A stretch of 64,000 nucleotides of DNA from Peptococcaceae bacterium BRH_c4b (GTDB taxonomy: Bacteria > Bacillota > Desulfotomaculia > Desulfotomaculales > Desulfocucumaceae), in NCBI GenBank assembly GCA_000961595.1, contig LADO01000017.1:1-64000 (forward strand), given 5' to 3'. Below are positions 6,504-8,588 of the stretch, one piece after another (within the stretch, counting starts at the first letter, position 1; each line of letters begins with the position of its first letter). The notes beneath the pieces were generated by a model. That model did no database searches. It was given only the letters and a program-made list of their open reading frames with translations, and was not told the DNA's origin. Made by a program: the position numbers and the translations under genes.

Positions 6504-6776
6504 ATGGCTCATAAGAAAGGTGTAGGTAGTTCCAGAAACGGTAGGGATTCCAAACCCAAAATGCTGGGTGTTAAAAGGGGCGACGGACAGTTTGTGACTG
6601 CCGGCTCCATACTGGTACGCCAGCGCGGAACCAGGATTTATCCGGGTACTAATGTGGGCAAAGGGAGAGACGATACCCTATTTGCAAAGATTGACGGAGT
6701 TGTAGCCTTCCGCACCAGAGGCAAGGATAAAAAAGAGGTTGAGATTCAGCCCGTAGTGGCCGAAGCAGTTATGTAA
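6504..6776 (+). CDS. rpmA: 50S ribosomal protein L27
   Basis: 90 residues beginning [20 protein letters not shown]27 reaches the peptidyl-transferase centre with its N terminus. Most Bacillota L27 proteins carry an extra N-terminal peptide (about 9-12 residues ending in phenylalanine) removed by the protease Prp (YsxB). This one starts directly at the mature-type AHKKG end, which agrees with the missing prp gene. SD is GGAGGTG, 8 bases before ATG. Confidence 0.97.
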
Positions 6777-6867: not shown

Positions 6868-7489
6868 CTTAAAAAGCAACCCCTTTCAGGGAGTCGCTTT
6901 TACTTACAGTGATAACTTGCCGGGTAAATATTGCGGCATAGGTCCGGTTGGTTTTCCCAGCCGGTTACCCGCCGTTACCGCGCGGGCGGTTTCCCTTTAA
7001 AACCCCTCCGGAATGATATCCGGTACCGGATTGCCACTAAGTCCGCACTTTAATCCCCGGCCTGTTCCGTTTCCATAAACGGACAGCCTAGAAGTTTTCC
7101 TTGACGGTAACCCTTCCTCTAGCCTCTTTTGCAGCGGTGGTTTCAGAAAAATACTATTCCATTCCCCACATCCACCTCAAGGCAGGCTACACTGCACGCA
7201 GTTGCTGCCACATGCAGGTTCACACCCCGGGCGCAAGCCTACTGCCTGCGGCACGGGTCTCCACGGAAACAGGGTCATTACATGGGCCGGGTATTTTAGC
7301 CCGTCATATAATTTGTCAATACATGCCTTTGCATTTAGCCCTGAGTCCTTAACTCCCAGTACCGGCCCCCGATGGCGTCGAAAGCCAGCACCAGGAACTT
7401 CATCGATGTGCCCTTGGCGGATTTTTAGCCCCGCCTTCGATAGAAGGTTTCCCGACTAGGATACTGCATCACTGATTATTCGGTTTATA
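6868..7489 (-). ncRNA. Large structured non-coding RNA (about 620 nt), OLE-RNA-like candidate
   Basis: No credible CDS occupies this GC-rich stretch, but the minus strand reads as an isolated transcription unit. TTTACA-N18-TATAAT lies just upstream (7496-7525) and a Rho-independent hairpin ends in TTTTT at about 6871. Between them are many local stems: CCTTC/GAAGG; GGCGG/CCGCC; CTGTCCGTTT with AAACGGAACAG; ATCCGG/CCGGAT; CCGGCTGG with CCAACCGG; TGCCG/CGGCA. Repeated GGGAAA/GGAAAA purine loops occur. Length, structural density and host group fit the ornate large extremophilic (OLE) RNA class, a membrane-associated RNA. However, I cannot align it to that family from memory, and the isoprenoid or oapA neighbours usual for OLE are absent. 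RNA gene: confident; class: tentative. Confidence 0.7.
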
Positions 7490-7495
7490 TTATGA

Positions 7496-7525
7496 ATTAT
7501 AGCAGAAAAGCGGCTGTTTTGTAAA
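7496..7525 (-). promoter_or_regulatory. Promoter of the structured RNA
   Basis: On the minus strand, -35 TTTACA at 7525-7520 and a perfect -10 TATAAT at 7501-7496 are 18 bases apart. Initiation would fall near 7489, the 5' end of the structured region. Confidence 0.8.
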
Positions 7526-7826: not shown

Positions 7827-7911
7827 TGTGGATAATATGTTGATAAGTGTTGACGTAGGACCGGAGTACTACGAATATACGTACTTTTTTACTCGCATCG
7901 CTTGTGGATAA
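7827..7911. promoter_or_regulatory. Two perfect DnaA boxes upstream of spo0B
   Basis: TGTGGATAA, the reverse complement of the consensus DnaA box TTATCCACA, occurs at 7827-7835 and again at 7903-7911 in the same orientation. A GTTGATAAG near-match lies between them. They precede the spo0B-like gene by about 115-200 bases. Binding by DnaA is inferred. Confidence 0.5.
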
Positions 7912-8024: not shown

Positions 8025-8588
8025 GTGGATATACTGGCTATGTTGGAATTTATTTCTGTGCAAAGGCATGATTTTTTAAACCACCTACAGGTTATATCCG
8101 GGCTGCTGCAGTTGAATAAAGGTGATAAAGTCAGGGATTATATTCGTCAGGTTAGCCTGGACGTTGATAGGCTGAGCAAGGTAATCCACATTAAAAACCC
8201 ATTTGTAGCTGCGGCCCTTTTACTGGGGAATCACCAGGCGGAAAAGCATCAGGTAATGATTAACTATAATATACATACCGATATGGACCAGTGCGCCATA
8301 CCCGGCGAGGAAATGGCCAAGGTTTTGTATGAAGCGCTGTCCCGGGCTGTTGAGCATTTGGCGTCACCGGAAGTGCCTGGCCGCAGCATGGATATATCTA
8401 TTTCGGAAACTGACAAAAAATATCTATGCAGGATTTCCTTCCCTGAAACGGCGGGGCGGGGAGACGGTATATCCCGGGATGTGGTAGCGGATATGGAAAA
8501 ATGTCTCTTGCCTTTCGGAGGCAGGATGGGCCTGGCGGTTACCGGGGGCGGTGGAGAGATTCATATTATTTCACCCCGGGTCACCTGA
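8025..8588 (+). CDS. Spo0B-like phosphotransferase/histidine-kinase-type protein
   Basis: 187 residues, close to B. subtilis Spo0B (about 190). An N-terminal helical hairpin carries RHDFLNHLQVISGLLQL; the histidine at about residue 15 is the expected phospho-acceptor (H-D-x-x-N box). The C-terminal part is a degenerate ATPase-like fold without clear N or G boxes, as in Spo0B. The protein would relay phosphate from Spo0F to Spo0A in sporulation. Its place directly upstream of obg repeats the Bacillus rplU-rpmA-spo0B-obg order. GTG 8025 is chosen because GGGGAGG lies 7 bases upstream; the longer ORF from 7902 runs through the DnaA-box region and lacks a ribosome site. Confidence 0.75.
   Translation: MDILAMLEFISVQRHDFLNHLQVISGLLQLNKGDKVRDYIRQVSLDVDRLSKVIHIKNPFVAAALLLGNHQAEKHQVMINYNIHTDMDQCAIPGEEMAKVLYEALSRAVEHLASPEVPGRSMDISISETDKKYLCRISFPETAGRGDGISRDVVADMEKCLLPFGGRMGLAVTGGGGEIHIISPRVT

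Follow-up and report, generated by a model that had tools for sequence, protein, structure and literature searches.

A second OLE RNA gene, lacking the P9.3 arm, between rpmA and spo0B in Peptococcaceae bacterium BRH_c4b

The interval between rpmA and spo0B in Peptococcaceae bacterium BRH_c4b raises the question of which RNA it encodes. In the window analysed here, the first 64,000 nucleotides of contig LADO01000017.1, an initial annotation had placed a 620-nt structured RNA gene on the minus strand of this interval. OLE RNA was named as the best-fitting class, an undescribed large RNA was kept as the alternative, and the usual gene neighbours of OLE were noted to be absent. OLE RNA is a bacterial RNA of approximately 600 nt, the biochemistry of which is still unknown. 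If the gene belongs to this class, its isolation from those neighbours has to be accounted for.

Identity and boundaries of the gene

A search with the Rfam model RF01071 matched positions 6893-7488 of the minus strand over model positions 1-616 with 407.2 bits (E 3.5e-116), the gathering score of the model being 50. The interval 7488-6893 is a complete, full-length gene for OLE RNA, a known class; the match bears out the class first suggested and refutes an undescribed large RNA. It was the sole Rfam match in the window among those kept at the gathering score or at E ≤ 0.01. RNase P, ROOL and GOLLD, also named as candidates, gave no match at these thresholds, other hits being at chance level, and no tRNA or tmRNA was found. 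The minus strand folded at -245.9 kcal/mol compared with -209.9 ± 5.4 kcal/mol for shuffled sequences (z -6.7, from only 20 shuffles), in agreement with a structured RNA gene, although its length by the model is 596 nt and not 620 nt.

The interval holds no annotated protein, and to that extent is free of ORFs as had been described; short frames do exist on the opposite strand, and with these alone a protein-coding interval was rejected. The description of the RNA as antisense to the gap is positional only, because the gene is convergent with rpmA, whose stop codon (6776) lies approximately 95 nt past the terminator. OLE RNA overlaps neither rpmA nor spo0B, and antisense regulation of rpmA was rejected on this ground. 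Further upstream in the ribosomal protein operon, a divergent ribosomal protein L21 leader precedes rplU (RF00559, 6068-6160, plus strand), scoring 28.7 bits, below its gathering score of 36.

The near-consensus promoter and the terminator at the far end were both recovered as annotated (Table 1), the -10 box ending 7 nt before the first base of the OLE model. Each shuffle is expected to contain, by chance, 5.4 promoters of such quality and 4.4 such terminators. A promoter and a terminator stand at the same place in all nine orthologous loci found elsewhere: TTTTACA and TANAAT-type boxes at a similar distance were present in the loci of G001-G007 and L134, with a weaker -35 box in G016, and the gene is followed there by a GCAACCC..GGGTTGC-type hairpin and a T run. 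Two perfect DnaA boxes (TTATCCACA, minus strand) are situated at 7827-7835 and 7903-7911, between the OLE gene and spo0B. Three such boxes occur in the window against 0.46 expected by chance, and both of those near the OLE gene appear to be kept in Desulfocucumis palustris.

Table 1. Coordinates of the OLE RNA gene, its signals, structural elements and neighbours in the window.
Feature	Position	Strand	Remarks
rpmA (ribosomal protein L27), convergent neighbour	6504..6776	+	NCBIfam TIGR00062
Intrinsic terminator, stem and T run right at the OLE 3’ end	6872..6901	-	Stem also in orthologous loci
OLE RNA gene, second ("orphan") copy, full length	6893..7488	-	RF01071; 257/282 conserved columns
Extra hairpin after P6.1	7277..7312	-	Genus only (this genome and D. 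palustris); fold kept, sequence differs between species
P4 stem and A-rich loop L4 (GGGGCUAAAAAUCCG)	7418..7432	-	Equivalent to cryo-EM dimer bridge B1 (PMC12286853); invariant in subclade
Promoter: -35 TTTACA (7520-7525), 18-nt spacer, -10 TATAAT (7496-7501)	7496..7525	-	11/12 consensus
spo0B-like sporulation phosphotransferase, divergent neighbour	8025..8588	+	ORF before obg; weak histidine-kinase match

Two OLE genes in one genome and the orphan subclade

The draft genome (3.62 Mb in 66 contigs) yielded two full-length matches when searched with RF01071: the window copy and a copy of 517.8 bits on another contig (C13:45699-46312). The latter sits in the cluster ispA-ole-oapA-dxs-tlyA, as standard OLEs of this taxonomic order do, groups with these and is 68% identical to the window copy. 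The usual neighbours are indeed absent from the window locus, since the window gene is a second OLE, while the standard copy stands with ispA, oapA and dxs on C13; the oapA of this genome is the one on C13, and the surroundings of the window copy have none. The standard copy runs into oapA, whereas the orphan copy ends at its own terminator. In the standard OLEs of the order that were examined, oapA follows immediately, within 381 nt at most; it is not near the orphan copies.

Two sets of genomes were surveyed, one from the class (113 genomes, 101 of them with OLE) and one from the phylum (398 genomes, 284 of them with OLE). Among the approximately 370 distinct OLE carriers in these sets, no other genome had two full-length OLEs. 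A few genomes gave several partial matches with much weaker E-values, lying side by side on one contig in two cases (G010 and G091). Six genomes (G228, G261, G291, G321, G340 and G370) gave several RF01071 matches, with E-values much weaker than usual, perhaps representing interrupted or rearranged OLE genes. In the OLE papers accessible here, no genome is described as having two OLE genes.

That the two-OLE state is unique among the approximately 370 genomes, and that the genome is a draft of 66 contigs, might indicate an assembly artefact in which one contig derives from another organism. This is very improbable, as the genome is 100% complete with 0.5% contamination and contains a single dxs and a single obg, and as congruent trees place both loci within one family. 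The Obg tree and a tree of ispA, oapA, dxs, tlyA and xseA agree in placing this genome inside its family; the congruent trees and the single dxs show the standard locus to be native and vertically inherited, and its transfer or contamination was rejected on these grounds.

The eight genomes of the family (f1) and one genome of another family (G016) each have an OLE near rplU and rpmA, scoring 399-448 bits, although one contig (G007) ends before rpmA could be seen. These include D. palustris NAW-5 (G001), and a pattern scan of GTDB genomes added one further member (L134). The orphan copies formed a single clade both with FastTree (51 sequences; support 1.0, stem 0.37) and with IQ-TREE (96 OLEs; UFBoot 100, stem 0.43), within which the window and D. 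palustris copies are sisters (98%). In several relatives with only the orphan copy (L034, L035 and L036), an ORF for an HTH-like regulator of about 190 aa and one for an aminotransferase fusion of about 870-880 aa lie on the same strand between OLE and rpmA.

Structure, protein partners and proposed role

Conservation was assessed over 282 columns conserved in at least 95% of 42 standard OLEs of the order. The window copy matches 257 of these and the orphan-only relatives 251-258, with 239 unchanged in all nine orphans. Differences between the window copy and that of D. palustris affect 10 of 275 conserved columns compared with 110 of 309 variable columns. The check for covariation in relatives that had been proposed found double compensatory changes in 30 of 158 consensus pairs among nine subclade sequences. 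The extra hairpin after P6.1 had a fold z of -1.5 in this genome and -3.1 in D. palustris.

With an intact standard ole-oapA in the genome and a score for the window copy that is the lowest but one in the subclade (407 bits), the second gene might be regarded as a decaying relic kept by chance, the work being done by the standard OLE. Such a relic is unlikely: the conserved columns are kept to the same extent as in relatives that have only the orphan, changes are concentrated in variable columns, promoter and terminator are intact and the extra hairpin is common to D. palustris. The second copy could be redundant in this genome.

In common with standard full-length OLE (RF01071; H. halodurans, C. 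acetobutylicum), the orphan RNAs have the core sequence and architecture, and their genomes encode OapB and OapC. All subclade members keep the A-rich loop L4 (CUAAAAAU), and the subclade also keeps the GGC of L6.1 with the GCC of L5 and the J4a/5 stretch CACAUCGAUGAAG, which is used by the OapC kink turn. The orphans differ in being located away from oapA with a promoter and a terminator of their own, and in several structural elements. The P9.3 arm is missing or shortened and its palindromic GGGCCC loop absent in all subclade members, whereas the GGCCC of this loop is conserved in at least 95% of the standard OLEs of the order. Throughout the subclade L5 is 2 nt shorter, the conserved P7 sequence is replaced and the loop of the retained 3’ GNRA hairpin, GCGA in standard OLE, has become GCAA or GUAA. 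From its description in the literature, this hairpin is the putative OapB-binding P13 region. In two OLEs of other families, L156 (G163) and L145 (G131), most of the P9.3 arm is likewise missing; L145 still adjoins oapA.

In the cryo-EM structure of the OLE dimer, L4 forms bridge B1, L5-L7 form B2 and L9.3 forms the intermolecular bridge B3 (PMC12286853). As the subclade lacks the arm that carries B3, a dimer without this bridge is a structural prediction, and any such dimer would have to be held together solely by the A-A contact of L4 and the loop contacts of L5/L6.

Two reduced forms of OLE have been described (Fernando and Breaker 2024, PMC11332333). Variant 1, of the TANB77 type, has short P7, P8 and P9 and often no OapB site. 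The orphan shares the short P7 and P9, but P8 is not shortened, the putative OapB hairpin at the 3’ end is retained and the hosts have large genomes with OapB and OapC; on the presence of P8 and the 3’ GNRA hairpin, identity with variant 1 was rejected. Variant 2, of the RF39 type, is likewise a reduced OLE form but lacks P7 and P8, both of which the orphan possesses, and was rejected accordingly. OLE RNA itself is well known; judged by the accessible literature, the orphan subclade is a new structural and genomic OLE subtype, the novelty lying in the presence of two copies in one genome and in a lineage devoid of the arm and of an adjoining oapA.

This genome encodes OapA, OapB and OapC, its OapB matching PDB 7k9b (OLE-associated protein B) with an E-value of 1.1e-9. 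The gene for this KOW protein, oapB, lies upstream of infA in G000 (this genome) to G003, G005-G007 and G016; the contig of G004 ends too early. An oapC/ybxF-like ORF, assigned by position and sequence, precedes rpsL in all nine subclade genomes. In two relatives with only the orphan copy (G001 and G003) oapA was not found, the whole dxs/oapA cluster also being missing from these fragmented assemblies. Markedly faster evolution of oapA in orphan-only species was rejected: oapA evolves slightly faster there, about as ispA does, and since the change in rate is similar to that of ispA there is no clear sign of coevolution.

In the published OLE system the RNA resides at the membrane with OapA, OapB and OapC and takes part in stress adaptation (PMC12265935, PMC11332333, PMC9723947). 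Most probably, the window interval is the monocistronic gene of a second, P9.3-less OLE RNA with its own promoter and terminator, which keeps the OLE core fold and enters a membrane particle with OapB, OapC and, in trans, OapA; this subtype would have replaced the standard ole in sister lineages, both being kept here. The second RNA would be transcribed from its own promoter, stop at its own terminator and fold into the OLE core. It would then join OapB, OapC and the OapA supplied by the ispA-ole-oapA-dxs cluster in an OLE particle which, by analogy with the published system, may act at the membrane in stress adaptation. In orphan-only species the subclade RNA would be the only OLE and would have to obtain OapA in trans.

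Within BRH_c4b the two RNAs could act in parallel, differ in regulation or pair with each other in mixed dimers via L4 and L5/L6. More tentatively, and with doubt prevailing, two functionally distinct OLE RNAs may work side by side, as two kinds of particle or as such mixed dimers, with both the P9.3 bridge and the ole-oapA operon dispensable for a working particle. Two diverged OLEs here and relatives with only the reduced one constitute a natural experiment on whether OLE requires the P9.3 dimer bridge and linkage to oapA, and on whether its particles are able to specialise.

Relocation of ole

Among the relatives, the oapA cluster was assembled in six (G002, G004-G007 and G016). In each of these, ole has disappeared from the cluster, whereas oapA keeps its place between ispA and dxs, and the ispA-oapA gap measures 26-286 nt. 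No OLE remnant was found between ispA and oapA in the orphan-only relatives, nor a second OLE match in those genomes. Both the Obg tree and the five-gene tree place G016 outside, followed by the present genus and then the other genomes of the family. As only BRH_c4b retains both copies and these six relatives have lost the standard one, relocation appears to have proceeded by gain of a second copy followed by loss of the old, which suggests that it runs through a two-copy stage. On the simplest reading, the origin of the second ole predates the divergence of the two families, there were at least two losses of the standard copy, and this genome has retained both genes. Alternatively, the standard ole may have been lost once and then ole alone regained.

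Horizontal transfer from distant Bacillota into the common ancestor of the two families, instead of duplication, might also account for the orphan subclade. The long stem (0.37-0.43) would suit such an origin, as would an OLE of another, distant family (L156), which is without the P9.3 arm, is likewise encoded away from oapA and joins the clade as its sister group in the 96-sequence IQ-TREE analysis. Its position is weakly supported (54%), however, it is without the 2-nt deletion in L5 and its neighbourhood is unrelated; the loss of the P9.3 arm in L145 also indicates that arm loss can be convergent. Transfer deserves serious consideration, although the balance lies somewhat against it.

Relocation of ole has happened repeatedly, since ole lies away from oapA in several other families, and for such relocation BRH_c4b offers a two-copy intermediate. 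Four families of the phylum (f21, f108, f23 and f30) resemble the orphan-only relatives in that ole is away from oapA while oapA stays in ispA-oapA-dxs; they differ from BRH_c4b in having one OLE only. Loci of other families with ole away from oapA were L155, L156, L157, L158, L159, L162 and L163, and oapA was between ispA and dxs in all six genomes followed up among the L155-L163 loci. The ispA-oapA gap of other families with a relocated ole gave no Rfam match. Unlike that of the orphan-only relatives, this gap holds an ORF for a small membrane protein in the three relocated-ole loci examined in detail.
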